Source: Solicola gregarius (GTDB lineage Bacteria > Actinomycetota > Actinomycetes > Propionibacteriales > Nocardioidaceae). Taken from it: a DNA stretch of 64,000 nt. The stretch lies in NCBI RefSeq assembly GCF_025790165.1, contig NZ_CP094970.1, positions 2,976,001 through 3,040,000 on the forward strand, written 5' to 3'. A program made the position numbers and the translations under genes. Below, in pieces: positions 2,919-44,652 of the stretch; positions within the stretch are counted from its first letter, which is position 1; each line of letters starts with the position of its first letter. The notes beneath the pieces are model-generated. The model did no database searches and was not told the origin of the DNA. It saw only the letters and a list, made by a program, of their open reading frames with translations.

Positions 2919-3001
2919 CAGCGTAACAGGGCTGCGCGCTCGCGGGAATCCCGCGGCCGTAACGTTGCGCCAAGACGCCTCGAACCCCCGGGAGAGTGAC
3001 C

Positions 3002-8554: not shown

Positions 8555-9277
8555 TCACCGTCGGAACAGCGTCCCGAGGCCGTCGAGCGGGGGTACGTCG
8601 CCGATCAGGTCGAGGCCCTTCCACACCGTTACCTGGTTGGCGGTCAGCACGACCTTCCCGGCGGCCTCTTCGAGGTCGTCGAGCCACGCGAGCGAGTGCA
8701 TCGCGGTGTCGGGTACGAGCACGGCCTCCGCCTCGGGTACGTCCGCCGCGTGGATCATCGAGACCACGGCGTCCTTGCCGAGCGTACCCACCTCGGCGGC
8801 GGTGATGATGCCGTTGCTCCGCATGGTGAGGACGTCGGTGCCGCCCTTGCGCATGAAGTCGACGAAGTGGGTCGCGACGTCCTCGGGGTACGAAGCGGCG
8901 ACCGCGACCTTGGTGAGGCCGAGGTGCGCGATGGCATCGGCGAACGCGATCGACGTCGACGACACCGGTACGTCGAGCTCGGCGGCGATGCCGTCGACCT
9001 GCTCGTGCGCGCCGTCCCAACCGAACACGAAGCTGCCCGACGTACAAGCCCACATGACCGCGTCCGGCTCGTACTGCGAGAGGGCCTTGGCGCCCTCGGC
9101 GAGCCGCGGTGCACTGCCGAGGTCGAGCAGCGCGTCGACGCGGTGTGCGTCCTCACCGACGGAGGTGTGGACCAGCGGTAGCCGGACGGCGCCGTCGAGA
9201 CGCTGCTCCAGCGCGGGGTAGTCGTCCTCGGCGCTATAGCCTGGGTACAGCAGCCCGATCGTCGGACGGTTCTTCAT
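8555..9277 (-). CDS. EutA-like Asp/Glu racemase-superfamily protein, first copy
   Basis: A 240-residue member of the maleate isomerase / arylmalonate decarboxylase / EutA group. The first active-site cysteine is present (Cys78 in WACTSGSF). The second cysteine position, normally in a SCTN motif, is Asp190-Thr191 (VPDTAMHSL). The two-cysteine racemase/isomerase chemistry is therefore unlikely, and a one-cysteine reaction or binding role is possible. It is the first gene of a two-gene operon with the GntR regulator, reading away from the ABC importer across the shared operator at 9349. The paralogue at 19607-20383 keeps both cysteines. Confidence 0.8.
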   Translation of the reverse strand: MKNRPTIGLLYPGYSAEDDYPALEQRLDGAVRLPLVHTSVGEDAHRVDALLDLGSAPRLAEGAKALSQYEPDAVMWACTSGSFVFGWDGAHEQVDGIAAELDVPVSSTSIAFADAIAHLGLTKVAVAASYPEDVATHFVDFMRKGGTDVLTMRSNGIITAAEVGTLGKDAVVSMIHAADVPEAEAVLVPDTAMHSLAWLDDLEEAAGKVVLTANQVTVWKGLDLIGDVPPLDGLGTLFRR

Positions 9278-9427: not shown

Positions 9428-10366
9428 ATGTACCGCACCGGACCAACGACACGACGTCACCGAATCGGAGTCGCCGCGATCGGAGCCTTGCTCTCCGTCG
9501 GCCTGGTGGCCGCGTGCGGTGGTGAGACCGACGACTCCGGCGATCGAGGTGCCAGTGGCGATACCGACAAGAACGCCACCCTGGAGTCGCTGAAGGACAA
9601 CGGCACCATCACCGTCGGTATCGCCGGCGAGGAGCCCTACAGCTACACCGACGAGGACGGTGAGCTCACCGGTGCCACGATCGCGTTGCACAAGAAGATC
9701 TGGGGCGACCTCGGCATCGACAACGTCGAGGCCGAGCAGGTGGAGTGGGACGCCCTGATCCCGGGTCTGAACGCCGGCCGGTACGACGCGATCAGCGCCG
9801 GCATGTCGATCCTGCCCGACCGCTGCGAGCAGGCTGACTTCGGTGACCCGGAGATCATGTACACCACCGCCTTGATGGTCCCGGAGGGCAACCCCGAAGA
9901 CCTGCACGACATGCAGGACATCAAGGACTCCGACGTGTCGTTCTCGGCCATGAACGGTGCCATCGAGCAGGGCTACGCCGACACGATGGGGATCAAAACG
10001 ATCACCGTCCAGACCCCGGAGGACGGGATGGAGGCCGTGGAGACTGGTCGCGCCGACGTCTACGCGCTGACCGGCATCTCGCTGCGTGCCCTGGCCGAGA
10101 AGAACCCCGATGCCAACGTCGAGGTGACCGATCCGTTCACCGCCGTCGTCGACGGCAAGCTTCAGGTCGGCGCCGGCGCCACGGTGTTCCGCAAGGACAG
10201 CGACGATCTGCGCGAGGCGTACAACAAGGAGCTCGCCAAGATCGTCGGCGACAAGCAGTCCTTCGAGGACGTCGTCGGCGAGTTCGGCTTCACCGAGGCC
10301 GAGCGTCCGAAGGGCGACGTGGACACCGAGATGCTCTGCGCCGGCGACCTGCCGGACGCCGAGTGA
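9428..10366 (+). CDS. EhuB-like ABC importer I, solute-binding lipoprotein
   Basis: A 312-residue periplasmic-type binding protein (bacterial SBP family 3). A lipoprotein signal is clear: basic MYRTGPTTRRHR, a hydrophobic stretch, then the lipobox LVAAC. The mature domain begins ITVGIAGEEPYSYTD and contains the WDALIPGLNAGRYDAISAGM and RC segments seen in ectoine-binding EhuB and its amino-acid relatives. The ATG at 9428 follows GAAGGG and is chosen because it gives the proper signal peptide. It is the first gene of a four-gene importer operon under the operator at 9349. Ligand assignment to ectoine/hydroxyectoine rests on family resemblance and context. Confidence 0.85.
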   Translation: MYRTGPTTRRHRIGVAAIGALLSVGLVAACGGETDDSGDRGASGDTDKNATLESLKDNGTITVGIAGEEPYSYTDEDGELTGATIALHKKIWGDLGIDNVEAEQVEWDALIPGLNAGRYDAISAGMSILPDRCEQADFGDPEIMYTTALMVPEGNPEDLHDMQDIKDSDVSFSAMNGAIEQGYADTMGIKTITVQTPEDGMEAVETGRADVYALTGISLRALAEKNPDANVEVTDPFTAVVDGKLQVGAGATVFRKDSDDLREAYNKELAKIVGDKQSFEDVVGEFGFTEAERPKGDVDTEMLCAGDLPDAE

Positions 10367-10387
10367 CTCTGACGGCCGGGCGCCGCC

Positions 10388-11113
10388 TTGTCTGAGATTC
10401 TCGATGCCCTGAGCGACTACGGGCCACAGATCCGAGACGGCCTCTCGGTCACCTTGCAGCTCTCGCTGGGCGGCGCGGTTCTTGCGTTCATCGTTGCGGT
10501 GATCCTCGGTCTCGCCGCGATCTCCGGACACGCGGTACCGCGGACGATCTCCCGCATCATCGTGGAGTTCTTCCGCGGCACCTCGCTCGTGGTGCAGCTG
10601 TTCTTCATCTACTACGTGTTCCCTGGGTTCGGCCTGGAGCTCGATGCAATTACCTGTGGCGTGATCGCGCTCGGGCTGAACTACGGGGCGTACGGGTCCG
10701 AGGTAGTCCGCGGTTCACTCAATGCTGTGCCCAAGGGGCAATGGGAGACAGCCACGGCGCTCTCGATGCCGTGGGTGACCAAGGTCCGCCGGATCATCTG
10801 GCCGCAGGCGTGGGCGCTGATGCTGCCCGGCCTGAACAACCTGATGATCATGCTGATCAAGGGGACCGCGATCGCGTTCCTCATCGGGCTGCACGACCTG
10901 ACGTACGCGACCAACGAGATGCGTAAGGATGGCGTCGAGGTAATGGCGGCGTACACCATCGGGTTTGTCATCTACTACCTGATCTCGCTCGTGTTCTACG
11001 GCCTGCTGCGGGTGTTGGAGCGTCGAGCACAGCGCCGGCTCGGGATCACGGTCACGACCAGCGATCCGGCCCAAACGGCTGGCGCGGCAGCAACTGCAGG
11101 GGCGGTGGCCTGA
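10388..11113 (+). CDS. ABC importer I permease (EhuC-like)
   Basis: A 241-residue HisM/GlnP-type permease with about five hydrophobic helices. The EAA loop, which contacts the ATPase, is visible in the middle (VPKGQWETATALSM followed by PQAWALMLPGL). The start is a TTG at 10388, because no ATG or GTG gives the first helix; the ribosome site is weak (GGCCGGG). It follows the binding protein by 21 bases and overlaps the next permease (TGATG). The two permeases form the membrane channel. Confidence 0.87.
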   Translation: MSEILDALSDYGPQIRDGLSVTLQLSLGGAVLAFIVAVILGLAAISGHAVPRTISRIIVEFFRGTSLVVQLFFIYYVFPGFGLELDAITCGVIALGLNYGAYGSEVVRGSLNAVPKGQWETATALSMPWVTKVRRIIWPQAWALMLPGLNNLMIMLIKGTAIAFLIGLHDLTYATNEMRKDGVEVMAAYTIGFVIYYLISLVFYGLLRVLERRAQRRLGITVTTSDPAQTAGAAATAGAVA

Positions 11114-11796
11114 TGAACTGGCACTGGGATATCGCCGGGGACGCGTTCCCCGTCATGCTGGAGGCCTTCCTCAAGACCACTCTGCTGGTCACGGTGGTGG
11201 GCTCGCTGCTGGCCGCCGTCCTCGGATTGGTCTGGGCGATGGGGCAGCGCGAGCTGCCGGGGCCGGCGAGCAAGCTCCTCGGCTGGGTGCTCGGTGTCAT
11301 CCGGATGACGCCGCTGCCGCTTCAGCTGCTCTTCGTCGTCGCGTTGTTCGCGTACCAATTCGACGGATACCAGCGTTTCGACAGCATCGACTCCACAACG
11401 ATCCTGACCATCATCGGAATCCTCGTCTTTGGGATTCACTACTCGACGTACATGGCGGAGTCGTACCGCGCCGGTATCGAGTCGATCCCGAAGGGGCAGT
11501 GGGAGGCCGCAACGGCTCTCTCCTTGCCATTGGGCCGTACGTGGCGGGCGGTGATGATCCCGCAGGCCGTCCGGGCCACGTTGCCGTCGTTGGGCAACTG
11601 GGCCATCGCGATGTTCAAGGACACGCCGTTCCTGCTCGCGATCTCCGTACCGGAGATGGTCGCGGAGGCCAGACGTATCGGTGGTGCGCAATTCTCGTAC
11701 ACCGAAGCCTTCACCATCGCCGGTCTGATCTTCCTGGCGGCGAGCTATCCGACCGCCATCCTGATGCGCAAATTGGAGAAGAAGCTTGCCTACTGA
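11113..11796 (+). CDS. ABC importer I permease (EhuD-like)
   Basis: A 227-residue second permease of the polar-amino-acid type, with five predicted helices and the EAA motif PKGQWEAATALSLPLG near residues 125-140. The start codon overlaps the stop of the first permease, and its own end overlaps the ATPase gene by 11 bases, so the three are translationally coupled. Confidence 0.88.
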   Translation: MNWHWDIAGDAFPVMLEAFLKTTLLVTVVGSLLAAVLGLVWAMGQRELPGPASKLLGWVLGVIRMTPLPLQLLFVVALFAYQFDGYQRFDSIDSTTILTIIGILVFGIHYSTYMAESYRAGIESIPKGQWEAATALSLPLGRTWRAVMIPQAVRATLPSLGNWAIAMFKDTPFLLAISVPEMVAEARRIGGAQFSYTEAFTIAGLIFLAASYPTAILMRKLEKKLAY

Positions 11797-12565
11797 GAAC
11801 GCATCACCGCGAATCGTGTTCGAGGACGTGCTGAAGCAGTTCGGCAAGAACACCGTCCTGAACAACCTCAACTTCTCCGTGGAACAGGGGGAGAGGGTCA
11901 CCCTGATCGGCCCGAGTGGGTCCGGCAAGACGACGATCCTTCGGTTGCTGATGACGCTGGAGGACCTCACCGGCGGCTACATCTATGTCGACGGCGACCC
12001 GCTCTCGTACGCCAAGCGGGACGGCAAGCGGGTCAAGCTGCGGCCGAAGGAGATCAGCCGGATCCGGCGCCGGATCGGGATGGTCTTCCAGCAGTTCAAC
12101 CTGTTTCCGAACATGTCGGTGCTCGACAACGTCATCGAGGCACCGGTGCACGTACTCGGCATTGACAAGGACGAGGCCCGAGAAAAGGCGGAGAAGCGAC
12201 TGGAGCAGGTCGGCCTCGGCGACAAGACGAACGCCCATCCGACTCAGCTCTCGGGCGGACAGCAACAGCGGGTCGCGATCGCGCGTGCACTGGCGATGGA
12301 GCCGGAGATCCTGCTGCTGGACGAGGTCACCTCGGCCCTCGACCCGGAACTGGTCAAGGACGTCCTCGGGGTACTCCGCGACCTTGCGGACACCACCGAC
12401 ATCACCATGCTGATCGTGACGCACGAGATGCAGTTCGCCCGAGACGTCTCGAACCGCGTACTGATGTTCGACCAGGGGCACATCATCGAGGAGGCGAAGC
12501 CCGACGTGATGTTCACCGACCCGACGCATCGACGTACTCGGGAGTTCCTCGAGGCGATCCTCTAG
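11786..12565 (+). CDS. ABC importer I ATP-binding protein (EhuA-like)
   Basis: A 259-residue ABC ATPase that powers importer I from the cytoplasmic face. Walker A GPSGSGKTT, signature LSGGQQQR and Walker B LLLDEVTSALDPE are intact. Between them is an insertion (DGDPLSYAKRDGKRVKLRP) also typical of EhuA-type ATPases. The start is a TTG at 11786 with GGAGAAG upstream, 11 bases inside the permease gene. It ends the operon. The GntR site of importer II begins 31 bases later. Confidence 0.88.
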   Translation: MPTENASPRIVFEDVLKQFGKNTVLNNLNFSVEQGERVTLIGPSGSGKTTILRLLMTLEDLTGGYIYVDGDPLSYAKRDGKRVKLRPKEISRIRRRIGMVFQQFNLFPNMSVLDNVIEAPVHVLGIDKDEAREKAEKRLEQVGLGDKTNAHPTQLSGGQQQRVAIARALAMEPEILLLDEVTSALDPELVKDVLGVLRDLADTTDITMLIVTHEMQFARDVSNRVLMFDQGHIIEEAKPDVMFTDPTHRRTREFLEAIL

Positions 12566-12696: not shown

Positions 12697-13602
12697 ATGA
12701 TTGGACCGAGCCACATGACGCACGACCCATCCAGACGCCGGCTGCTGCGCGGAATCGGTGCAGCGACCGTCGGCGTCCCGCTACTGGGCTGGTCGACCGG
12801 CTGTACGTTCACCGAACCCGGTACCGGCGCCCCGAAGGGCAGCGTGCTGGACCGCGGCCGCGACCAGGGCTACCTCAAGGTGGCGATCTTCAACGAGCCG
12901 CCGTACACCAAGCTCGAGGTCGACGGCACCGTCACCGGCGCCGAGCCAGACGTACTCCGTGCGGTGCTCAAGAGGCTCGGCATCGACGACATCGACGGCG
13001 TACGCATCGAGTACGACGCGATGATCCCGGCGCTCAAGTCTGGCCAGGTCGACGTGATCGCCGCGGGGCTGTTCATGAAGCAGTCAAGGTGTTCCGAGGT
13101 TGCGTACACAGAGCCGGTGATCGTGTCGACCGAGTCGTTCGCGGTGCCGCCGGGCAACCCGGACAAGGTCACCACCATCCAGGACGTACTCGACAACCCG
13201 AAGCTGAAGATCGCGGTGCTACCGGGAGGCTTCGAGGAGGGCATCCTGATTTCCGCCAAGGTGCCCGAGTCGCAGCGGGTGATCGTCCGCGACAACGTCA
13301 CGGGCGTCGAGGCGCTGGAGGCGGGCCGCGCCGACGCGTTCCTGCTTCCGACGCTGTCGCTGGAGGGCCTGGCGAAGGACAACGACAGCTTCGAGGTCAC
13401 CGATCCGGTCGAGGACGCCCCGGCCACCGGCTCCGGTGCGGCGTTCGAGCAGTCGCAGACCGACGACGTCGCCGAGTACAACGACGAGCTCGCGAAGTTC
13501 AAGCAGACAAGCGATTTCGACGAGCTGATGGACAAGTGGGGGTTCGACGCCGACGCGGCGCGCAACGCCACCACCGAAGAACTCTGCAAGGCAGAGGGGT
13601 GA
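12697..13602 (+). CDS. EhuB-like ABC importer II, solute-binding protein
   Basis: A 301-residue SBP family 3 protein. The N-terminus carries a twin-arginine motif (SRRRLLRG) before a hydrophobic run and a cysteine (WSTGC), so it is probably exported by Tat. The lipobox is not canonical. The body repeats the EhuB pattern: IEYDAMIPALKSGQVDVIAAG, an RC pair and a GNP segment. It is only distantly similar to the importer I protein. An ATG at 12715 would still leave the twin arginines. First gene of the second importer operon. Confidence 0.83.
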   Translation: MIGPSHMTHDPSRRRLLRGIGAATVGVPLLGWSTGCTFTEPGTGAPKGSVLDRGRDQGYLKVAIFNEPPYTKLEVDGTVTGAEPDVLRAVLKRLGIDDIDGVRIEYDAMIPALKSGQVDVIAAGLFMKQSRCSEVAYTEPVIVSTESFAVPPGNPDKVTTIQDVLDNPKLKIAVLPGGFEEGILISAKVPESQRVIVRDNVTGVEALEAGRADAFLLPTLSLEGLAKDNDSFEVTDPVEDAPATGSGAAFEQSQTDDVAEYNDELAKFKQTSDFDELMDKWGFDADAARNATTEELCKAEG

Positions 13603-13608
13603 CCGCCG

Positions 13609-14298
13609 ATGTCTGATGTCCTCGAATACCAAAGCCTGCTCTGGGACGGCCTCTGGACCACCGTCGTCGCATCGTTCTTCGGGATCCTGCTGACGATTGT
13701 GGTCGCGTTCGTGGTCGGCATGATGCGGCTGTCGAAGACCCGATGGCTGCGCGCTCCGTCGTACGTCTTCGTGGAGTTCTTCCGCGGTACGTCGATCCTC
13801 GTGCAGCTGTTCTGGGTGGTGTACGCGCTTCCCTTCCTGGGCGTGCGGTTCACCGACAACCTCGTTGCAGGCATCGTCGTGCTCGGGCTGAACGAGGGGG
13901 CGTACGCCTCGGAGGTCGTACGTGGTGCGATCGCGTCGCGGCCGCGCGGCCAGACCGAGGCCGGGATCGCTCTCGGGCTCACGCCCGGGCAGCGAATGCG
14001 TCGCATCCTCATCCCGCAGTCGATCCCGGTGATGCTGCCGTCGTTCGGCAACGTCGCCGTCGACCTGCTGAAGGCAACCCCGCTGCTGTACTTCATCACC
14101 GTCACGGAGTTCACCGCGGACGGCCTGGCGATTCGCACCGAGACCCAGGAGACGACCGCGGTCATGCTTTCGCTGCTCGTCGTCTACTTCGTCCTGTCGA
14201 TGATCCTGGCACTTCTCACGCGGTTGCTGGAGAACAGATTCGCCCTGGAACGTCGTACGCACCCGCTCCTGCGGCCGCTCGTCGGGAGTGCCTCATGA
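13609..14298 (+). CDS. ABC importer II permease 1
   Basis: A 229-residue HisM-type permease with five hydrophobic helices and a degenerate EAA loop (RGQTEAGIALGLTPGQ rather than the usual KGQWEAA). It starts 6 bases after the binding-protein stop and overlaps the next gene by 4 bases (ATGA). Partner of the permease at 14295. Confidence 0.87.
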   Translation: MSDVLEYQSLLWDGLWTTVVASFFGILLTIVVAFVVGMMRLSKTRWLRAPSYVFVEFFRGTSILVQLFWVVYALPFLGVRFTDNLVAGIVVLGLNEGAYASEVVRGAIASRPRGQTEAGIALGLTPGQRMRRILIPQSIPVMLPSFGNVAVDLLKATPLLYFITVTEFTADGLAIRTETQETTAVMLSLLVVYFVLSMILALLTRLLENRFALERRTHPLLRPLVGSAS

Positions 14299-14981
14299 AC
14301 GAATCGATGATCCTCGCCGCCGACGAGCTCTGGGACAACGGGTACGCGGCCGACATCTTCCCCGAGCTCCTCGACGCGTTCTGGCTGACGATCCGGTTGA
14401 CCCTCGTCGGTATGGCGATCGCGCTGGTGCTCGGGCTGATCGTTGCGGTGGTCCGTTACCCGCGGATACCCGTGCTGTCCCGGCTGTTCGACTTCTACGT
14501 GCTCTTCATCCGGGGCACGCCGCTGCTGGTGCAGATCTTCGCGGTCTACTTCATCCTGCCCGACTACGGCATCACGCTGTCGGGCTTCGTGACCGGCGTA
14601 CTCGTGCTCGGCATCAACTACAGCGCGTACACCGCGGAGGTCTATCGCGCTGGGATCGAGGCGTTGCCGAAGGGGCAATGGGAGGCGGCGACGGCGCTGA
14701 ACCTTCCGCGAGGGCGCACGTGGACCAAGATCGTGCTGCCGCAGTCGATCGCGCCGACCATCCCGGTGCTCGGCAACTACCTGATCCAGATGTTCAAGGA
14801 CACCGCGTTGCTGTACGCGATCGGCAGTCCCGAGGTGATGACCGTGGCGCGCCAGATCGGCCAGACGAACGGCGAGTTCCTGGAGCCGTTGACCATCGCC
14901 GGGATCATGTACCTGGTGATCAGCTACATCTCTTCGCTGGGGATCAAGCGACTGGAGCGTCACTATGCGCTGGCCGCCTGA
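14295..14981 (+). CDS. ABC importer II permease 2
   Basis: A 228-residue permease with the standard EAA loop (PKGQWEAATALNLPRG) and five helices. The ATG at 14295 overlaps the upstream TGA. An upstream in-frame extension exists but lies inside the first permease and is not plausible. Completes the channel of importer II. Confidence 0.87.
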   Translation: MNESMILAADELWDNGYAADIFPELLDAFWLTIRLTLVGMAIALVLGLIVAVVRYPRIPVLSRLFDFYVLFIRGTPLLVQIFAVYFILPDYGITLSGFVTGVLVLGINYSAYTAEVYRAGIEALPKGQWEAATALNLPRGRTWTKIVLPQSIAPTIPVLGNYLIQMFKDTALLYAIGSPEVMTVARQIGQTNGEFLEPLTIAGIMYLVISYISSLGIKRLERHYALAA

Positions 14982-15017
14982 CCTGCCCGCCCCCGTACGT
15001 ACCGAGAGGAACCCCCG

Positions 15018-15773
15018 ATGATCACCTTCGAGAACGTCAGCAAGAGTTGGGGCGACAACCACGTCCTGCGCTCGCTCAACTTCGAGGTCACCGCCGGTGA
15101 GAAGGTATCGATCATCGGGCCGTCGGGATCCGGTAAGACGACGATCCTGCGCGTCCTGATGACGCTGGAGACTCCGGACGACGGACTGGTCACGATCGAG
15201 GGCGACACGTTGTGGGATGCGCGCGACGGCAAGAAGCCCAAGGAGACCAAGCAGATGCGGGCCGTACGTAGCAAGGTCGGCATGGTCTTCCAGTCCTTCA
15301 ACCTGTTCCCGCACATGACGGCGTTCGAGAACCTCATCGAGGCGCCGATCCGCGTACTCGGCATGAGCAAGGACGAGGCGGGGGAGCGTGCGCGCGGGCT
15401 GCTCGAGCAGGTGGGCCTGAGCGATCACGCCGACCACAAGCCGCCGAAGCTGTCGGGCGGCCAGCAGCAGCGCGTCGCCATCGCGCGTGCAATGGCGATG
15501 CGACCGTCGATCCTGCTGTTCGACGAGCCGACGTCGGCGCTCGACCCCGAGCTGATCGGCGACGTGTTGGCGGTCATCCGCGATCTCGCGAACGACACCG
15601 ATATGACGATGCTGATGGTCACCCACGAGATGCGGTTCGCCGAGGAGATCTCCGACCGGGTCGTGATGTTCGACTCCGGTGCCGCGGTGGAGACCGGCCC
15701 GCCCGAGCAGGTGCTGAAGAACCCGACACACGAGCGTACGCAGCGCTTCCTGCACGCGGTGCTCGACCACTGA
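15018..15773 (+). CDS. ABC importer II ATP-binding protein (EhuA-like)
   Basis: A 251-residue ABC ATPase with Walker A GPSGSGKTT, signature LSGGQQQR and Walker B LLFDEPTSALDPE. The same short insertion (DGKKPKETKQ) as in the importer I ATPase is present, which supports a common origin of the two systems. GAGAGGAA precedes the ATG. Last gene of the operon; a 25-bp-stem hairpin follows. Confidence 0.89.
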   Translation: MITFENVSKSWGDNHVLRSLNFEVTAGEKVSIIGPSGSGKTTILRVLMTLETPDDGLVTIEGDTLWDARDGKKPKETKQMRAVRSKVGMVFQSFNLFPHMTAFENLIEAPIRVLGMSKDEAGERARGLLEQVGLSDHADHKPPKLSGGQQQRVAIARAMAMRPSILLFDEPTSALDPELIGDVLAVIRDLANDTDMTMLMVTHEMRFAEEISDRVVMFDSGAAVETGPPEQVLKNPTHERTQRFLHAVLDH

Positions 15774-15856: not shown

Positions 15857-17056
15857 CTACGCGCTCAGCAGTCGCATGGCAGCGAGCGCGTACGTGCGGG
15901 CGGCCACCACGAGTTCGTCGAGGCCGACCGACTCGTCGGGCTGATGCGCCTGCGTGCCCACGGATCCGGGCCCCAGTACGACGACCGGCGTCCCGTACGC
16001 CCGGGCGATGAAGCCGCCATCGCAGGCGGCCGTCCACCCGGCGAGCGGCAGACCCGGGCCCCCGGCCGCGCCGAGAGCGCCGTCGACCGCCGCCACGAAC
16101 CCATGCTCGGCGGGCGTCTCGAAGCCCGGCATCTCCATGGTCATTGCGATCTCGACACCGAGGCCACGCGAGTCGAGGCCCAGCGCGGCGATGCGTTCGC
16201 GCGTCGCCGCGAGCACCGGCGCCCCCTCCTCCGTCGGCAGCAGCCGTCGGTCGACCATCAGGTGACATTCGGCAGGCACGGTCGACGTACCGAGCCCACC
16301 GTCGACGCGCCCGACGTTCCACGTCGGTGGACCTACCAGCGGGTGGGAGTCGCCCGCGGCCAGCTCGTGGTGCCACGCCTCGAGGTCGGCAACGATCGCC
16401 GCCGCACCGTAGATCGCGTTGACGCCGTCGGCCGGGTTGCCCGAATGCGCCGCATGACCGGACACCGCGATCTCGATGTACGAGTCGCCACGGGCGGCGA
16501 TGATCGGCTGCAGGTCGGTCGGCTCGGCGACGATGCAGCCGCCGTAGCCTGCGCCACCGCCTCGCTCGATGTAGCGGCGGACGCCCTTGCCGGTCTCCTC
16601 CTCGTCCATGACGGCGGCGAGCTCGACCGGGCCGGCGAGCGAGATGCCGGCCGTACGAAGGGCCGCCATCGCGACCACGGAGGCGGCCAGACCGCCCTTC
16701 ATGTCGGTCGACCCGCGCCCGTACAGCCGCCCGTCGCGCACCTCGCCACCGACCGGATCGAGCGTCCAGCCGTCGCCGACCGGCACCACGTCGGTGTGCC
16801 CGAGCAGCAGCAGGCCCGGCTCGGACCCGCCCGCAAGCGTCGCCGACACGTTCGGCCGGCCCGGCTCGACCTCGTCGACCTCGACCGACAGCCCACGCGT
16901 ACGACACGCATCGGCAAGCACAGCTGCGGTCTCGGCCTCACCGCCGGGCGGATTCTGACCCGGTGCAGCGACGAGTGCGCTCGTCAGTGCGGCGACCTCG
17001 CCGACGGTGATCCGGTCGAGCACCTCGCGCTCGGCCGGCGTCAGGTCGCCCGTCAC
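15857..17056 (-). CDS. M20 family zinc deacetylase/peptidase (ArgE/DapE-like)
   Basis: A 399-residue M20 metallohydrolase that removes an acyl group from an amino acid amine. Metal ligands are visible: His87 and Asp89 in GHTDVVP, Asp118 in GRGSTDMKGG, and the acidic run DEEETG at 151-156. The GTG at 17056 is chosen because GTGA overlaps the aminotransferase stop. It is the last gene of the EutA-M24-aminotransferase-M20 operon. Ectoine hydrolysis yields N-acetyl-diaminobutyrate, an analogue of N-acetylornithine, so an ArgE-like enzyme could do the deacetylation normally carried out by the M14-type EutE/DoeB, which is absent here. That role is inference. Confidence 0.82.
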   Translation of the reverse strand: MTGDLTPAEREVLDRITVGEVAALTSALVAAPGQNPPGGEAETAAVLADACRTRGLSVEVDEVEPGRPNVSATLAGGSEPGLLLLGHTDVVPVGDGWTLDPVGGEVRDGRLYGRGSTDMKGGLAASVVAMAALRTAGISLAGPVELAAVMDEEETGKGVRRYIERGGGAGYGGCIVAEPTDLQPIIAARGDSYIEIAVSGHAAHSGNPADGVNAIYGAAAIVADLEAWHHELAAGDSHPLVGPPTWNVGRVDGGLGTSTVPAECHLMVDRRLLPTEEGAPVLAATRERIAALGLDSRGLGVEIAMTMEMPGFETPAEHGFVAAVDGALGAAGGPGLPLAGWTAACDGGFIARAYGTPVVVLGPGSVGTQAHQPDESVGLDELVVAARTYALAAMRLLSA

Positions 17057-18315
17057 CGAGCCACCTTGTCGCTGTTCGACGGTCGCGCTCGTCGACCCGC
17101 TCGTTCCTCGCTCTCTCCTTGCCGCTCGATCGCGCGACGCAGACGGCGTACGCCCTCCCGCGTACGCTCCGCATCGGTCGTCGCGAAGCACAGCCGCAGC
17201 GCGTCCGAGAAGTGGCCCTCCGGCGAGAACGCCGGACCCGGAATGTACGCGACGCCCTCCGCCAACGCGGTCTCGAAGAGCTCCTGGGTATCGACGCCGT
17301 TGGAGAGCGTCACCCACAGGAAGAACCCGCCCTCGGGATCGGTCCAGCGGGCGATGTCGCCGAGGTGCTCCTGAAGTGCGTCCTGCATCGCGTGCTTGCG
17401 CTTGCGGTACTGCTCGCGCTGGGTCGCCAGGTGCTTCTCGAGATGCCCGCCCTCGAGGAAGCCGGACACGAGCCGCTGCGCAGGCAGGTTGGTGCACGTG
17501 TCCATCGCCTGCTTGGCGTTGATCAGCAGCGACTGCAGCTCTGGCGCGGTGTCGACCCAGCCGACCCGCAGGCCAGGCGCGATGATCTTGGAGAACGTAC
17601 GTACGGAGAACACCAGCGGATCGCCCTCGCCGACCTCGCGCAGCGTCGGCAGGTCGTCGCCCTCGAAGCGCAGCATCCCGTACGGGTCGTCGTCGATGAC
17701 GACGGCGCCCCACGTACGAGCAAGCTCGAGCAGCTGGTGACGGCGCTCGAGCGACATCGTCGAACCGGACGGGTTCTGGAACGTCGGCACCGTGTAGATC
17801 GCCTTGGGTGTGCGTCCGGCGCGCTCGGCGATCGCTGGCAGAGCGTCGACCACCATGCCGTCGTCGTCGACGGGCACCTCGGCCAGCTCCGCGCCGTACG
17901 ACAGTGCCGTCGCGCTGCCGTTGGTGTACGTCGGGCCCTCGACGACGACGAGATCGCCCGGGTCGACGAACAGCTTGCACGCGAGGTCGAGCCCCTGCAT
18001 GCCGCCGGCCGTGATCGTCAGCCGGTCTTCCGTCGTCTCGTCGCTCGTACCCTTCAGCGTCGCGAGCAACGCCTCGCGCAGGGGCGGGTCGCCCTCGGTC
18101 GCGGCGTATCCGTACGCGTCGGCGGCGTCCGGCGCGAGAGCGGTCTCGGTGATACCGGCCAGGATCTGCGACGGTACGGCGTCGTCGGCCGGGCTCCCCA
18201 TCGCGAACCGCACGATGTCGTGGGTCTGCTGCTGCAGCAGCGAGGTGCTCGAGTCGATCACCGACCCGACGAGCTGATCGGCGCGCGCGGCGAGCGGGAG
18301 ATTCGTGGCGGTCAT
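17053..18315 (-). CDS. Fold-type-I aminotransferase (LysN/2-aminoadipate type)
   Basis: A 420-residue PLP aminotransferase without the N-terminal GntR domain of MocR proteins. PTFQNPSGS near residues 177-185, DDDPYG at 208-213 and Lys243 in RTFSKIIAPGLR are the expected active-site elements. The operon places it between the ectoine-hydrolase-like and M20 genes, so it may handle diaminobutyrate or another pathway amine. The last 22 residues or so (from [15 protein letters not shown]) are encoded by a copy of the 57-bp dispersed repeat and look added to a normal C-terminus. Stop and M20 start overlap. Confidence 0.85.
   Translation of the reverse strand: MTATNLPLAARADQLVGSVIDSSTSLLQQQTHDIVRFAMGSPADDAVPSQILAGITETALAPDAADAYGYAATEGDPPLREALLATLKGTSDETTEDRLTITAGGMQGLDLACKLFVDPGDLVVVEGPTYTNGSATALSYGAELAEVPVDDDGMVVDALPAIAERAGRTPKAIYTVPTFQNPSGSTMSLERRHQLLELARTWGAVVIDDDPYGMLRFEGDDLPTLREVGEGDPLVFSVRTFSKIIAPGLRVGWVDTAPELQSLLINAKQAMDTCTNLPAQRLVSGFLEGGHLEKHLATQREQYRKRKHAMQDALQEHLGDIARWTDPEGGFFLWVTLSNGVDTQELFETALAEGVAYIPGPAFSPEGHFSDALRLCFATTDAERTREGVRRLRRAIERQGESEERAGRRARPSNSDKVAR
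17081..17127 (-). repeat. 57-bp dispersed coding repeat, single copy
   Basis: On the minus strand this closely matches the unit seen twice in acpS (52690-52803) and about three times in truA (30534-30678). It encodes [13 protein letters not shown] in the aminotransferase tail, the same reading frame as in acpS. Confidence 0.75.
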
Positions 18316-18319
18316 GCGA

Positions 18320-19522
18320 TCACTTCCTGACGGTGAGTTCGTGCGGCAGGTCGGTCAGGTGCTCGACACCGTCGCCGGAGACGACGATCGGCTCGGACAG
18401 CTCGTAACCCCAGCCGTCCATCCAGATTCCCAGGATGACGTGGAAGGCCATCCCGGCTTCAAGCACGGTGGGGTCACCGGCGCGCAGGCTCACGGTGCGC
18501 TCGCCCCAGTCGGGCGGGTAGCCGATGCCGATCGAGTAGCCGATTCGCGATTCTTTGACCAGGCCCTGCCGGTTGAGGATGTCGTTGACGCTCGCGTGTA
18601 CGTCGGCGACGACGACGCCCGGCTTGATCGCCTCGCACCCGGCGGCGAGCGCCTCGTCGACGGCGTTCGCGGTGTCTGTCAGCAGCGGCGGCGGATCGCC
18701 GAGGTGGATGGTGCGCGCGAGTGGTGCGTGGTAGCGACCGAACGCGCCCGCGAGCTCGATCGTCGTTGCCTCGCCGGAGACGAACGGTTGCTCGCTCCAG
18801 GTCAGATGCGGAGTGCCTGCGGCCGCCCCGGTGGGGAGCATCGGCGGGATCGCGGGGTAGTCGCCGCCGTGCTCGGCCGTGCCTCGCGCCTGCGCCGCGA
18901 CGATGTCGCCCGCCACGTCACACTGGCGGCGACCCGGCCACACCGACTCCAGGGCCGCTTGCATCGTCGCCTCGGCGATCTGGCCGGCGATGCGCAGCTG
19001 GGCGATCTCGTGTTCGGACTTCACCAGACGTACCCAGTTGACCAGCTCCCCGCTGTCGACGACGCGGGCGCCGTCGAGGCCCTCGACGAGCGAGACGTAC
19101 GCGCGTGCGGAGAAGAAGTGCGAGTCGCACTCCGCGCCGATGACGGCATCGGGGCCTGCCGGGAGTACGCCACGCGCGCGAGCCGTCTCGGTGATCCAGC
19201 CGAACGGATGGATGTCCGGGCGGTGGACGAGCGTCTCGGGGTAGCCGACGATGTGCTCGTCGAGCAGGTTGCAGGTGTGCCGCGCGCCGGCGGCGTCCAT
19301 CGCCCGCGCGAAGAGCGTCGGCGGCCCGTCGGCCGGCAGGACCAGGCACTGCGGCGTGTAGAACGACCAGGCGTTGTAACCGGTCAGGTAGAACAGGTTC
19401 GCCGGGTCGGTCACGACCAGTGCAGACAGCGACCTCCTCTCCATCGATGCGCGTACGCGGCGCAGCCGCTCCGCGTACTCGGCGTCACTGGCCATGCTGG
19501 CCATCTCGGGCGAGCGAGTCAT
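18320..19522 (-). CDS. doeA: Ectoine hydrolase-like M24 family protein (DoeA/EutD)
   Basis: A 400-residue pita-bread-fold protein, the length of ectoine hydrolases. The N-terminal FYLTGYNAWSFYTPQ and the IPPMLPTG...GTPHLTW stretch (225-242) resemble EutD/DoeA. The metal ligands of M24 peptidases are lost: the first Asp is Glu256 (TIELAG) and the second falls on a proline. A metal-free enzyme with a catalytic glutamate near residue 255 is what I recall for EutD, which opens ectoine to N-acetyl-diaminobutyrate. Creatinase, also metal-free, is the main alternative. GGGAGGA precedes the ATG. Second gene of its operon, 4 bases before the aminotransferase. Confidence 0.75.
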   Translation of the reverse strand: MTRSPEMASMASDAEYAERLRRVRASMERRSLSALVVTDPANLFYLTGYNAWSFYTPQCLVLPADGPPTLFARAMDAAGARHTCNLLDEHIVGYPETLVHRPDIHPFGWITETARARGVLPAGPDAVIGAECDSHFFSARAYVSLVEGLDGARVVDSGELVNWVRLVKSEHEIAQLRIAGQIAEATMQAALESVWPGRRQCDVAGDIVAAQARGTAEHGGDYPAIPPMLPTGAAAGTPHLTWSEQPFVSGEATTIELAGAFGRYHAPLARTIHLGDPPPLLTDTANAVDEALAAGCEAIKPGVVVADVHASVNDILNRQGLVKESRIGYSIGIGYPPDWGERTVSLRAGDPTVLEAGMAFHVILGIWMDGWGYELSEPIVVSGDGVEHLTDLPHELTVRK

Positions 19523-19606: not shown

Positions 19607-20383
19607 TCAGCTGTGCAGCAGCGCCTGCCCCTGGCCGATCGCGTTCTTGCCAATGGCCCGCAGTGCGGCCCACATCGTCGCCTGGTTGGCGGTCACGATC
19701 GGCTTGCCGAGCTCGCGCTCGAGCGGCGCGATGACGTCGTACGTCGGCAGGTTGGTGCACGAGACCACGATGGCGTCGGCTTCGGGCCGATCTGCCTGCC
19801 GGATCAGTCGCTTCGTGCGCGCGTACCCGACCTCCCAGATCTTCTCGTGCAGGCCCAGGCAGGCCTTGCCGACGACGTCGATCTCGGCCTCGTTGAGGTA
19901 CTCGTCGAGCAGGGCGGTCATCGGCTCGTCGTACGGCGTGGCGATCGAGACCTGCTTGGCGCCGAGGTGGCTGATCGCCTGCAGCACGGCGCCGGAGGTC
20001 GTGAGTGCCTTTGCCGCGCCGGCGGTCTCCATCGACGACACCAGGCTGTTCTCGCCGAGGATGCCGTTCGCGAAGCTGCCCGAGGTGCAGCCGTACGCGA
20101 CGACGGCCGGCTCGATCACGGACAGGTCGGCCACGCACTGGGCGATCGCGGTCGGGTCACCGATCAGCATCGCCATCTCGACGGTGACCGGCAGCGGTAC
20201 GAAGGCCTCCCGGGTGAAGTGCAGCGTGACCCCTTTCGGAGTCCAGCGCCACATCTCGCCGTCCAGTGCCATGTCGTGGGGCACGACGATGCCGACGCGC
20301 AGCGGCATCGAGGGACCGACGAGGTCGTCGACCTCGACGGGCGCGTCCGCGGCTTCGTTGCCGGCGGGGATCGAGGTCGTCAT
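19607..20383 (-). CDS. eutA: EutA-like Asp/Glu racemase-superfamily protein, second copy
   Basis: A 258-residue protein with both catalytic cysteines of the racemase/maleate-isomerase fold: Cys99 in GCTSGSFANG and Cys209 in VVSCTNLPT. Family members named EutA accompany ectoine hydrolase genes, and a role with hydroxyectoine stereochemistry has been proposed. The ATG at 20383 is chosen because an upstream extension would run through the operator at 20409. It is the first gene of the operon running through the M24, aminotransferase and M20 genes, 84 bases before the M24 start. Confidence 0.78.
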   Translation of the reverse strand: MTTSIPAGNEAADAPVEVDDLVGPSMPLRVGIVVPHDMALDGEMWRWTPKGVTLHFTREAFVPLPVTVEMAMLIGDPTAIAQCVADLSVIEPAVVAYGCTSGSFANGILGENSLVSSMETAGAAKALTTSGAVLQAISHLGAKQVSIATPYDEPMTALLDEYLNEAEIDVVGKACLGLHEKIWEVGYARTKRLIRQADRPEADAIVVSCTNLPTYDVIAPLERELGKPIVTANQATMWAALRAIGKNAIGQGQALLHS

Positions 20384-20408
20384 GCGGAAATGATGCACTA
20401 GCGAAGGG

Positions 20409-20420
20409 ATTGTTGACAAT
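20409..20420. promoter_or_regulatory. GntR operator in the EutA/dehydrogenase divergon
   Basis: ATTGTTGACAAT flanked by GG and CC, giving a 16-base near-palindrome. For the rightward gene TTGACA (20413-20418) and TAGGCT (20437-20442) are 18 bases apart, and the GTG begins exactly six bases after TAGGCT. For the leftward operon TTGTCA on the other strand lies 18 bases from CATCAT. One repressor dimer would silence both operons. Confidence 0.84.
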
Positions 20421-20448
20421 CCTACGGGCCGCTTCCTAGGCTCCCTGC

Positions 20449-21453
20449 GTGAATCCACTTGCCGCCCGACCCGTCATCGCCGTGCTCACCGCGCCCGGGG
20501 TCGACAACCCTGCGGGCATCGAAACGATCGAGGCGCGCGCCGACGTGCGCTATACGTACGCCGACGGGCTGGCCGATGCGGTCGCCGGTGCGGACGCGTT
20601 GCTGCTGTGGGACTTCTTCTCGACGGCGGTACGCGACGCGTGGCCGCGGGCCGACTCGCTGCGCTGGATCCACATCGCGGCGGCGGGCCTCGACAAGCTG
20701 CTGTTCGACGAGCTGCGTGAGTCCGAGGTGGTCGTCACCAATGCGCGGGGCGTGTTCGACCGGCCGATCGCGGAGTTCGTGCTCGCGTCGATCCTCGCGC
20801 GGGCCAAGGGCCTGCACGTCAGCCACGACCACCAGCTCGAGCGTCGCTGGGAGCACCGCGAGACGCGTACGCTCGTCGGCGAGAAGGCGCTGGTGGTCGG
20901 CACCGGAGCGATCGGTCGCGAGTCCGCCCGCCTGCTGGCCGCCGTCGGCATGGAGGTACGCGGCGCCGGGCGTACGGCCCGCAGCGGAGACCCGGACTTC
21001 GGCGAGGTCGTCGAGAGCGCCTCGCTCGCCGAGCAGGTCGGCTGGGCCGACCACGTCGTCGTCGCGGCGCCACTCACGGAGCAGACGCGCGGGCTCGTCG
21101 GCGCGGACGTCATCGATGCGATGCAGCCGTCCGCGCATCTGGTCAACATCGGGCGCGGCGAGATCGTCGACGAAGATGCCCTGCTTGCGGCGCTGAGCTC
21201 CGGCGGCATCGCGGCCGCGTCGCTCGACGTGTTCTGCCATGAGCCGCTCCCCGACGACAGCCCGATGTGGACCACGCCGGGAGTCGTCGTCTCGCCGCAC
21301 ATGTCGGGTGACGTGCTCGGCTGGCGTGAGACGCTCGCCCGGCAGTTCGTCGACAACGCGCGCCGGTTCCTCGACGGGGAACCGCTGGCTAACGTCGTCG
21401 ACAAGCGTCTCGGTTTCGTGCCTGCCGACACCTCAAGGAGCCCCCGTGCCTGA
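20449..21453 (+). CDS. D-2-hydroxyacid dehydrogenase
   Basis: A 334-residue NAD-dependent dehydrogenase that interconverts a 2-oxo acid and a D-2-hydroxy acid. The nucleotide motif GTGAIG lies at 151-156. The catalytic set is visible as Arg in NIGRGEIVD, Glu in FCHEPLP and His in SPHMSG. The GTG at 20449 coincides with the predicted transcription start (TAGGCT plus six bases), so the mRNA should be leaderless. It overlaps the amidase gene by 8 bases. Its substrate is unknown; within the island it might reduce an oxo acid released from a hydroxylated ectoine-like compound. Confidence 0.85.
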   Translation: MNPLAARPVIAVLTAPGVDNPAGIETIEARADVRYTYADGLADAVAGADALLLWDFFSTAVRDAWPRADSLRWIHIAAAGLDKLLFDELRESEVVVTNARGVFDRPIAEFVLASILARAKGLHVSHDHQLERRWEHRETRTLVGEKALVVGTGAIGRESARLLAAVGMEVRGAGRTARSGDPDFGEVVESASLAEQVGWADHVVVAAPLTEQTRGLVGADVIDAMQPSAHLVNIGRGEIVDEDALLAALSSGGIAAASLDVFCHEPLPDDSPMWTTPGVVVSPHMSGDVLGWRETLARQFVDNARRFLDGEPLANVVDKRLGFVPADTSRSPRA

Positions 21454-22852
21454 TCCGAACCTCTGGTCCGTGTCCGAGCTGACCGCCGCGTACCGCTCGC
21501 GAGAGGTCTCGCCCGTCGAGGCGACGCAGGCGGCGCTCGACGCGATCGCCGCGCACGACGGCGACGTGAACGCGTTCGTACGCGTCGAGGACGAGTACGC
21601 GCTGGAGTCGGCGCGTGCCTCGGAGAAGCGGTGGGCCGCCGGGGAGCCGGTCGGTGCGGCGGACGGCGTACCGACCTCCATCAAGGACATCTTCCTCACC
21701 CGCGACTGGCCGACCCTGCGCGGCAGCGCGCTGATCGACGAGGGCGGGCCGTGGCCGGAGGACGCGCCGGCCGTCGCGCGGCTTCGCGAGTCGGGTGCGG
21801 TCTTCCTGGGCAAGACGACGACACCGGAGTTCGCCTGGAAGGGTGTCACCGACTCGCCTCGCTTCGGCGCAACCGGCAACCCGTGGGGCGCCGGCCTCAC
21901 CGCCGGCGGTTCGAGCGGCGGCAGCGCGTCGGCCGTCGGTCTCGGCATGGGGACGTGGTCGGTCGGCACCGACGGCGGGGGCTCCGTACGGATCCCGGCG
22001 GCGTTCACGGGCACGGTGGCGATCAAGCCGACGTACGGCCTCATCCCGCTGTATCCGGCGAGCCCGTTCGGCACCCTCGCGCACGCGGGGCCGATGACCC
22101 GCTCGGTGACCGACACGGCCGCGATGCTCGACATCATCACCGGCTTCGACGCGCGCGACTGGTCGGCGATGCCGACGCCGACGACGTCGTTCCTCGACGG
22201 TCTCGACGACGGTGTCGCCGGGATGCGGATCGCGTACTCGCCGAACCTCGGATTCGTGCGGAACGACCCCGAGGTCGACGCTGCGGTACGAGCGGCGGTG
22301 GCGGCGCTCGCGGACGCCGGTGCCGTGGTCGAGGAGGTCGATCCCGGGTTCGACGACCCGGTCGAGGCGTTCGAGGTGCTGTGGTTCAGCGGCGCAGCGA
22401 AGGTGATCGAGCCGTACGGCGACGGCGCGCTCGAGCGCATCGACCCGGGGCTGCGCGAAGGTGTCGAGCGAGGCCGGCAGCTGTCGGCCGGCGACTACCT
22501 CGACGCGACCGCGGTACGAATGGCGCTCGGCAAGCGGATGAGCGAGTTCCACGAGGCGTACGACGTGCTGCTGACACCGACGATGCCGATCGCGGCCTTC
22601 GAGACCGGCCGCGACGCGCCGGCGGGCTCAGCCTCGTCGGCGTGGACGAGCTGGACGCCGTACACGTACCCGTTCAACCTGACCCAGCAGCCCGCGCTGA
22701 GCGTGCCCTGCGGCTTCACGTCCGCTGGGCTGCCCGTCGGCCTGCACGTCGTCGGCCCGCGCCACGCCGATGCCCGGGTGCTCCGTGTCGGCCGGGCGTA
22801 CGAGCGCGCGGGCGACTGGTCGAGCGTGGTGCCCGCCCTGCTGCAGACCTGA
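21446..22852 (+). CDS. Amidase (amidase-signature family)
   Basis: A 468-residue amide hydrolase. The Ser-cisSer-Lys triad is complete: Lys80 (PTSIKDIF), Ser156 (GGSSGGS) and Ser180 (GTDGGGSVRIPA). AAGGAG stands just before the GTG at 21446, inside the end of the dehydrogenase gene. It may cleave an amide intermediate or an N-acetyl group in the island's pathway. Broad specificity in this family prevents a firm substrate call. A hairpin repeat follows the stop. Confidence 0.87.
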   Translation: MPDPNLWSVSELTAAYRSREVSPVEATQAALDAIAAHDGDVNAFVRVEDEYALESARASEKRWAAGEPVGAADGVPTSIKDIFLTRDWPTLRGSALIDEGGPWPEDAPAVARLRESGAVFLGKTTTPEFAWKGVTDSPRFGATGNPWGAGLTAGGSSGGSASAVGLGMGTWSVGTDGGGSVRIPAAFTGTVAIKPTYGLIPLYPASPFGTLAHAGPMTRSVTDTAAMLDIITGFDARDWSAMPTPTTSFLDGLDDGVAGMRIAYSPNLGFVRNDPEVDAAVRAAVAALADAGAVVEEVDPGFDDPVEAFEVLWFSGAAKVIEPYGDGALERIDPGLREGVERGRQLSAGDYLDATAVRMALGKRMSEFHEAYDVLLTPTMPIAAFETGRDAPAGSASSAWTSWTPYTYPFNLTQQPALSVPCGFTSAGLPVGLHVVGPRHADARVLRVGRAYERAGDWSSVVPALLQT

Positions 22853-22866
22853 CCCCCGCCGCAACG

Positions 22867-22906
22867 AATAGACATTTGTTACGCCAGGGCATGACAAATG
22901 TCTATT
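22867..22906. repeat. AATAGACATTTGT hairpin, copy 1
   Basis: Arms 22867-22879 and 22894-22906 (13 bp, perfect) enclose a GCC/GGC inner pair. Nearly the same sequence recurs at 44609-44652 after glmM. Both follow a stop codon closely, so a terminator role or a small dispersed element is possible. The AT-rich arms stand out from the surrounding GC-rich sequence. Confidence 0.75.
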
Positions 22907-22946
22907 TGTCCGGCGGACCTTGCCACTCCCCGACGGAAGGACCCAG

Positions 22947-23447
22947 ATGACCCGCTACCTGACCGTGAGCCTGGACAAGCGCGGGGTGCAGTGCACCGCG
23001 AAGCTGCTCGACGACGAGGCGCCGCGTACGGCCGGCGCCGTGTGGGACGCGCTGCCGCAGTCGGGGCAGGTGTACCACGGCAAATACGCGCGCAACGAGA
23101 TCTACAACCTGGTGGCGCCGTTCGCCGAGACCGCCCCCGGGCCGGAGAACACCACGATCACGCCGATTCCCGGTGACCTGTGCTACTTCGACTTCACCGG
23201 TGGGCAGCTCAGCAACCCGGCGTACGGGTACGCCGACGGCGGGGCGGAGGACGACACCAGCGGGGTGATCGACCTCGCGGTGTTCTACGGGCGCAACAAC
23301 CTGCTGATCAACGGCGACCAGGGCTGGGTGCCGGGCAACGTGTTCGGCACGATCGTCGAGGGCTTCGAGGAGTTCGCGCTCGCCTGCCAGGACATCTGGA
23401 TGGGCGGCGCCCGCGGCGAGAGCCTCACCTTCGCGCGTAAGGAGTGA
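22947..23447 (+). CDS. DUF3830 family protein (cyclophilin-like fold)
   Basis: A 166-residue protein I recognise as DUF3830. Features include the stretch PQSGQVYHGKYARNEIYN near residues 40-57 and the segment DLAVFYGRNNLL at about 113-124. No biochemical role is established. GAAGGA lies six bases before the ATG at 22947. It is the third gene of the operon with the dehydrogenase and amidase, separated from the amidase by a hairpin, and its inclusion in the operator-controlled unit argues for a part in the same catabolism. It is the last gene before the ribosomal region. Confidence 0.75.
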   Translation: MTRYLTVSLDKRGVQCTAKLLDDEAPRTAGAVWDALPQSGQVYHGKYARNEIYNLVAPFAETAPGPENTTITPIPGDLCYFDFTGGQLSNPAYGYADGGAEDDTSGVIDLAVFYGRNNLLINGDQGWVPGNVFGTIVEGFEEFALACQDIWMGGARGESLTFARKE

Positions 23448-44608: not shown

Positions 44609-44652
44609 CAAATAGACATTTGTTATGCCAGGGCATGACAAATGTCTATTTG
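44609..44652. repeat. AATAGACATTTGT hairpin, copy 2
   Basis: Perfect 15-bp arms (44609-44623 and 44638-44652) with an inner ATGCC/GGCAT pair. It differs from the copy at 22867-22906 by one loop base and slightly longer arms. It lies eight bases after the glmM stop and 46 bases before the Nudix gene. Confidence 0.8.

Follow-up and report, generated by a model that had tools for sequence, protein, structure and literature searches.

In the ectoine pathways outlined in two reports (PMC5924519, PMC13188858), EutD converts ectoine to N-acetyl-diaminobutyrate, a deacetylase yields diaminobutyrate, and a transaminase and a semialdehyde dehydrogenase then lead to aspartate. Here we describe a catabolic island of Solicola gregarius that resembles such systems and that ends in a gene of the family DUF3830 (PF12903). 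It lies in a window of 64,000 nucleotides, the whole stretch of DNA that was analysed (contig NZ_CP094970.1, positions 2,976,001 to 3,040,000), and coordinates given below are those of the window unless otherwise stated. The island and the meliloti and R. pomeroyi clusters described in PMC5924519 have in common an Ehu importer, an EutA-like protein, an EutD-like M24 hydrolase, a transaminase and a semialdehyde dehydrogenase, and that account also mentions a hydroxyacid dehydrogenase gene, hdhD, in some clusters, its role being left undefined. Compared with the clusters as presented there, the island has an M20 protein in place of a recognised EutE and a FadR-type GntR regulator in place of the MocR-type EnuR, and it adds two EutA homologues, an amidase and DUF3830, with no EutB or EutC among the genes scanned.

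A report of 2026 (PMC13188858) describes clusters putatively for ectoine in Actinomycetota, Bacillota and Halobacteria; its authors call the EutD-based ones of Gram-positive bacteria provisional. As described there, the clusters were found through EutD and EutB, so that DUF3830 loci without an M24 gene would be missed; those of Bacillota include abgB, a putative amidohydrolase, and the word amidase does not occur in the main text of that report. A full-text search for DUF3830, PF12903 or 3KOP found no paper in the collection searched, and no title or abstract opening among the papers listed pointed to a module of EutA1, EutA2, amidase and DUF3830.

The window DUF3830 protein of 166 amino acids (22947..23447, forward strand) matches PF12903 over the entire profile (1-143 of 143; E 1.1e-62; 210.6 bits against a cut-off of 26) and is a full-length member of the family with a cyclophilin-like or McbB-like fold. 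It is preceded on the same strand by a D-2-hydroxyacid dehydrogenase (HDH; 20449..21453; Pfam 2-Hacid_dh_C with E 6.8e-49, also 2-Hacid_dh), for which the top NCBIfam match, NF041369, reaches 221 bits and stays under its cut-off of 400, and by an amidase-signature amidase (21446..22852; Pfam Amidase with E 9.4e-98; NCBIfam NF004815, 742.7 bits against a cut-off of 506). An earlier note on this DNA had described the three genes as a tight operon within a catabolic regulon. The operon is real, although the word tight fits only its first pair, which overlaps by 8 bp; the amidase stop and the DUF3830 start are 94 bp apart, with a palindrome between them. Beyond the operon, the link of DUF3830 with EutA1, EutA2 and the amidase as one module is strong. 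Considering co-occurrence, linkage, a conserved shared operator and the fold, we read DUF3830 as an enzyme of a catabolic module of (hydroxy)ectoine type, performing ring C-N chemistry together with the amidase in a regulon under one repressor, and give this reading as a whole a probability of about 0.5.

Co-occurrence was analysed in a sample of 296 genomes of one class, 48 of which contain PF12903 above the cut-off. Our counts use the 39 genomes with close DUF3830 orthologues (the window genome included), leaving out nine distant genomes over the cut-off and one below it; partners were accepted at E up to 1e-120 for the amidase, 1e-25 for EutA1 and EutA2, and 1e-60 with the EutD model for M24. 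The amidase was found in all 39 genomes, EutA1 and EutA2 in 38 each and all four genes in 38, the exception being a genome (G282) that has DUF3830 and the amidase with no EutA matches. Partners without a close DUF3830 were found in five genomes for the amidase, two for EutA1 (one a short match, the other 32% identical) and eight for EutA2. The Fisher p-values for DUF3830 with the three partners range from 8e-39 to 2e-44; the tests ignore kinship between genomes, and the values are overstated because the sampled genomes are related. A distance of 86 kb separates DUF3830 from EutA2 in one genome (G002), and in another (G090) they are on different contigs; since both genomes keep the two genes unlinked, the co-occurrence is not merely linkage. 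DUF3830 genes elsewhere are thus associated with this gene set, and the almost perfect co-occurrence with the amidase and the EutA pair supports the earlier note in placing DUF3830 in a regulon for catabolism; the solute plausibly contains an amide or a ring. The eight genomes with EutA2 alone carry at that locus an ABC importer (8/8) and HDH (5/8), and none of them has EutA1, the amidase or DUF3830 there.

The earlier note had also expected DUF3830 to co-occur with M24 genes, and this part failed. M24 is present in six of the 296 genomes, two of which have DUF3830 (2/39; Fisher p = 0.18), and DUF3830-M24 as the core pair was therefore rejected at class level. Among the M24 genomes without DUF3830, two (G266 and G139) have M24, a class I/II aminotransferase (AT1), the M20 deacylase, HDH, a succinate-semialdehyde-dehydrogenase-like aldehyde dehydrogenase (SSADH) and a class III aminotransferase (AT3); G221 has M24 and M20 with a weak ABC match, and G138 has weak matches only. 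The amidase, EutA1 and EutA2 were not found in these four genomes at the thresholds used. Because M24-only genomes share the back end of the pathway and do so without the amidase and EutA, two front ends would appear to feed one back end, the M24-only side of this picture coming from two genomes.

In the DUF3830 tree, a quick tree with SH-aLRT support only, linkage of M24 (29 of 100 loci of at least 17 kb, window included) changes seven times, with at least four changes forced by well-supported branches, compared with 25 changes in shuffles. PF12903 occurs in six of 39 close relatives (the window genome included). The congener G296 has the same island, two genomes (G308 and G298, the latter on a short contig) have the M24 form with the amidase, and G299 has EutA1, EutA2, HDH, the amidase and GntR without M24. 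A 13-kb contig of G303 carries EutA2, GntR, SSADH, AT3 and the carrier but not the amidase, HDH or EutA1. Haloferax volcanii matches both PF12903 and the EutD model.

Of forty sampled loci, two distant ones gave no tblastn match and were dropped. The remaining 38 loci contain HDH (36), the amidase (36), EutA (35), EutA2 (35), AT3 (20), GntR (20), SSADH (18) and M24 (1). We also compared named loci, namely the best 80 of at least 587 that are most similar to the window, all from actinobacterial genera and several of them ending at contig edges. EutA was found in 70 of these, the amidase in 61, EutA2 in 60, HDH in 53, GntR in 49, SSADH in 35, M24 in 33, AT1 in 32, M20 in 31 and AT3 in 30. As M24 is common in the loci most like the window, the window represents one subset of the family. 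Five of 119 loci have no M24, EutA pair, amidase or HDH within reach, although one of these, L076, comes from G090, in which a different contig holds the partners (L169). Loci were also compared from four of the nine distant class genomes left out of the co-occurrence counts. Two of them (L077 and L078) show only EhuA-like ABC matches from the module, L078 having in addition a GntR of the same cluster, while a third (L174) shows SSADH- and EhuC-like matches (32-36%) beside DUF3830 and a fourth (L175, 3.4 kb) shows none.

The operator that the earlier note took to be shared with an ectoine-hydrolase-like operon is confirmed. The site GATTGTTGACAATC (20408..20421) lies between the divergent EutA1 (Amdase/EutA-like; 19607..20392, reverse strand, start assumed) and HDH, is common to the HDH operon and the divergent EutA1-M24-aminotransferase-M20 operon, and is conserved in related loci. 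With at most one mismatch, TTGTTGACAA has six matches in the window at five distinct places, one palindromic site being counted on both strands; 0.43 matches are expected, and none of 100 shuffles reaches six. These places are at 37 (before the carrier), 2908 (between AT3 and SSADH, where the site reads TTGTCGACAA), 9350 (between EutA2 and a second ABC importer), 12597 (before EhuBCDA) and 20410 (between EutA1 and HDH), and in the congener G296 there are sites at all five equivalent places, EutA1/HDH included. In 118 related loci the pattern TTGT..ACAA gives 257 sites, against 8, 7, 5, 5 and 3 for five control patterns, with a site in 98 loci. A stricter pattern, TTGT[CT][GA]ACAA, was counted up to 10.5 kb from DUF3830, with the window among the loci; of its 237 sites, 219 fall between 350 nt upstream of and 60 nt inside the start of a module gene. 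The stricter operator accompanies 93 of 119 transcription units that hold DUF3830; the other 26 are 23 lone DUF3830 genes and three amidase-DUF3830 pairs. The regulator that binds the operator is probably the FadR-type GntR protein of the island (7843..8523, reverse strand; GntR with an FCD domain). An EnuR-type MocR regulator was not found in the island, where the regulator is of the GntR/FCD type, and no whole-genome search for EnuR was made. Exact copies of the operator number seven in the genome, four of them within the window. The other three, at genome positions 906123, 1089857 and 3391492, lie near a TPR protein, near a MazG-domain gene, and between a D-serine-dehydratase-like gene and an isochorismatase/nicotinate phosphoribosyltransferase pair (L198, L199 and L200).

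DUF3830 proved less of an orphan family than had been claimed, as both fold and profile place it next to McbB and KslB. These enzymes are described as carrying out the Pictet-Spengler reaction of tryptophan with a keto acid or aldehyde (PMC12513458, PMC7024544). The closest solved homologue of the window protein is PDB 3kop from Arthrobacter sp. FB24 (released in 2009; E 2.9e-78, 67% identity), the title of which assigns no function. In a structure comparison, the AlphaFold2 model (pLDDT 82.6) matched 3kop with a Z score of 27.5, McbB with 18.6 (rmsd 1.9 over 133 residues) and KslB with 18.4, followed by TM1367 with 14.2 and ordinary cyclophilins with about 12.5-13.3. Foldseek placed KslB directly after 3kop (E 6.5e-7, probability 1.00), with McbB ranking 25th and TM1367 30th. 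TM1367 (1zx8), an atypical cyclophilin, is alike in fold but shorter, and is a weaker match than McbB.

The DUF3830 sequence profile matches McbB with E 2.3e-4 over the whole chain and the archaeal AF2241 with E 0.0049. An hhalign comparison with three McbB-like proteins (L177-L179), whose E-values describe a comparison of two profiles and not a database search, gave probabilities of 96.9 (local) and 97.5 (global) for an alignment of 14 rows, and of 93.5 over 56 columns (local) and 86.5 (global) with 12 close rows. Thirty column-shuffled controls did not exceed 1.8 and ten module proteins taken as single sequences did not exceed 1.9. Judged from these profiles and the predicted model, DUF3830 is a remote homologue of the bacterial Pictet-Spenglerase catalytic domain, and the kinship in fold stands. 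The catalytic-domain fold is common to DUF3830 and McbB/KslB (the cucumopine synthase family) over 133-134 residues at about 20% identity and His44 aligns in DUF3830 and McbB, whereas the helical bundle domain PF18631 is absent from DUF3830, in which PF12903 is the sole Pfam match. Sixteen polar residues are at least 99% conserved in 119 close DUF3830 sequences (H44, K46, R49, N50, E51, Y53, E67, N68, D77, D109, Y114, R116, N117, N118, N122 and D124), and of these H44, E67 and Y114 are shared by both distant sequences in alignment A1. One of the McbB-like proteins (L177), nearly letter-for-letter identical to the McbB stretch, comes from a genome (G206) that also has the DUF3830 module (L052).

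The Pictet-Spengler reaction proceeds through an imine to ring closure. Ectoine, a cyclic amidine, can formally be derived by condensing an amine with an acetamide. DUF3830 has a Pictet-Spenglerase fold, and its neighbours include an amidase, EutA proteins, a transaminase and a semialdehyde dehydrogenase; the simplest reading is that it acts as a ring catalyst on such a compound. EutA1, EutA2, the amidase and DUF3830 would form the front-end module, conserved in actinobacteria, and the most probable substrate would be ectoine, 5-hydroxyectoine or a closely related cyclic solute. The most likely role of DUF3830 is to form or cleave a C-N bond of the ring (by opening, closure or isomerisation) in the solute or an intermediate, and the amidase would next cut the exposed amide. 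The back end common to both front ends would comprise the 2-hydroxyacid dehydrogenase, the class III transaminase and the semialdehyde dehydrogenase, the last two taking the product towards aspartate. One FadR-type GntR repressor probably switches front end, back end and solute importers together. The window appears to hold a candidate for each published step of the ectoine pathway. A more specific version, which we consider unlikely, is that DUF3830 opens the ring of ectoine or 5-hydroxyectoine as a second enzyme for this step, non-homologous to the first. It would be a hydrolase of cyclic amidines with the Pictet-Spenglerase fold and would together with the amidase replace EutD and EutE; this would explain the many actinobacteria with the back end and no M24. 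A crystal structure of this family has been available since 2009, with no function assigned; the partner set, operator, likely substrate class and fold open that function to direct test. If DUF3830 does act on ectoines, many soil actinobacteria missed by EutD-based surveys would join the users of these solutes, and the Pictet-Spenglerase scaffold would be at work in catabolism.

Several observations weigh against assigning DUF3830 to an ectoine-type module. M24 scores 417 bits against an EutD cut-off of 613 and EutA1 95.2 bits against an EutA cut-off of 318, and EutA2, scored on the EutA model through its L053 homologue only, gives 105 bits and is likewise under the cut-off. Neither EutB nor EutC was found among the island genes scanned, a set that excludes the rest of the genome and about 0.85 kb between sulfatase and GntR without an assigned gene. 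At E 1e-60 no M24 ectoine hydrolase is present in 37 of the 39 DUF3830 genomes, so that there we infer an ectoine substrate from the back end and EutA alone. The TTGT..ACAA site is absent from 20 of the 118 related loci. As to the fold, the sequence profile does not reach significance with KslB (E 0.52), and its strongest single stretch in McbB is a weak match (E 0.03). The catalytic residues of McbB, which we take to be R72, H87 and E97 (the numbering fits L177 by count), align in the profile alignment with T69, D109 and G126 of DUF3830. Since these residues are not kept, the chemistry of DUF3830 must differ, and its membership among the Pictet-Spenglerases was rejected. Distant members of the family occur in other settings: on the Novosphingobium plasmid pLA3 (L159, 10001-10468) DUF3830 stands directly before SSADH and near urea carboxylase/allophanate hydrolase, and in Rhizobium it is found with an FCD regulator, an aldo/keto reductase and a branched-chain-type ABC importer. 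The whole family therefore need not share one substrate. Plasmid records of the wider family number only three, at 27-30% identity, two of them from the same Rhizobium strain. The urea amidolyase setting of L159 is a further hint at amide nitrogen catabolism.

These points leave room for an alternative that we regard as somewhat unlikely, in which EutA1, EutA2, the amidase and DUF3830 degrade another cyclic or amide solute unrelated to ectoine, and M24-M20 with EhuBCDA is a separate ectoine pathway placed under the same repressor in the subset to which the window belongs. The statistical independence of M24 from DUF3830, the seven changes of linkage on the tree and the distant genes near urea amidolyase or other transport genes would all fit, as would the importers, since 15 of the 38 sampled loci carry the SBP1 type (that of the second importer in the window) and an EhuB match was found in none. 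Against this, the M24 sets of G266 and G139 include HDH, AT3 and SSADH without the amidase, EutA or DUF3830, and DUF3830 loci carry homologues of the same three enzymes, which is most easily read as related substrates entering one route. This argument comes from two M24-only genomes, and in the other two (G221 and G138) the back end is not seen in full.

The ectoine-type reading also treats DUF3830 as a catalyst. That it is instead non-catalytic and serves the amidase or the EutA pair as accessory subunit, chaperone or peptidyl-prolyl isomerase would suit a cyclophilin-like fold and an amidase that is present in 39/39 genomes and often directly upstream, but we find it quite improbable: Pictet-Spenglerase domains rank next to 3kop in the structure comparison and reach Z 18.6, where true cyclophilins stay at about 12.5-13.3, many of the most conserved residues are polar, and in 18 of 119 loci DUF3830 follows AT3 and not the amidase. 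That the association is chance or a passenger effect of the neighbouring infA/ribosomal region, as the position of DUF3830 as the last island gene before infA might suggest, is largely refuted by the comparative data, the Fisher values being extreme (if overstated through kinship) and secY-adk-map lying nearby in only five of the loci L039-L158, yet the partners recur.

The wide gap within the operon holds a 34-bp palindrome (22870..22903), built of the arm GACATTTGT, a 14-bp centre and the arm ACAAATGTC, and DUF3830 lies 94 bp from the amidase because this dispersed element occupies the gap. A genome search with the exact 9-bp arms gave 20 places, every one with a 14-bp centre, and most copies displayed have longer arms. 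The gap has a strong predicted hairpin (-41.7 kcal/mol, z -6.68). Among 17 copies inspected with a rough open reading frame caller, 11 are no more than about 45 bp from a gene 3' end and six are farther away; some copies sit between convergent genes. The family looks like a REP- or terminator-like one. With 20 copies scattered across the genome, the palindrome was rejected as the regulon operator. In the congener G296 (L206) the gap is 34 bp and the palindrome is absent, and the element was not found in the relatives' loci L205-L210. The amidase is directly upstream of DUF3830 in 53 of 119 loci. Measured from one alignment end to the next, 42 of these gaps fall within 9-60 nt, and that of the window, at 98, is the sixth largest. 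Given the short gap without the repeat in the congener and the recurrence of the three-gene operon in related loci, the 94-bp separation looks like a recent insertion. A second window copy of the palindrome is located at 44614-44647.

The island covers about 23 kb (window 1-23447) of a 4.9-Mb genome in a single contig, and is situated between secY-adk-map and infA inside a ribosomal gene region; in the congener G296 it occupies the same place. It begins with the ProP-like MFS carrier (110..1492, forward), AT3 (1564..2808, reverse) and SSADH (2996..4489, forward; Aldedh), the last sharing 79% identity with the protein of L040 that gives the best match to the SSADH model. EutA2 (8555..9277, reverse) shows Amdase-family homology. 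The second importer, a family-3 ABC importer (9428..12565, forward; binding-protein start codon approximate), is followed by the ectoine-type EhuB-C-D-A importer (12697..15773, forward), in which EhuB (233.2 bits, cut-off 190.9) and EhuA (352 bits, cut-off 345.4) both pass the curated cut-offs for ectoine importers and EhuB matches PDB 2q88 with 1.6e-60. EhuD has a permease domain, and EhuC was called solely from its position and its homology to related loci. The divergent operon contains an M20 ArgE/DapE-type deacylase (15857..17071, reverse; TIGR01910, 230.7 bits, cut-off 217.6), AT1 (17053..18315, reverse) and the M24 hydrolase (18320..19522, reverse), of which the nearest solved relative is the ectoine hydrolase DoeA (6twk; 4.8e-104). 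AT1 resembles the aminotransferase domain of MocR regulators: its best models are PdxR and YczR, under their cut-offs and in the aminotransferase part, and Pfam shows no helix-turn-helix domain.

A sulfatase (PF00884; 4606-6972) lies between SSADH and GntR. It is retained in the congener and was elsewhere among the loci compared seen only in L140. infA also follows DUF3830 in L207, and secY-adk-map is close to the cluster in L056, L107, L123, L138 and L147, four of these five being mycobacterial.

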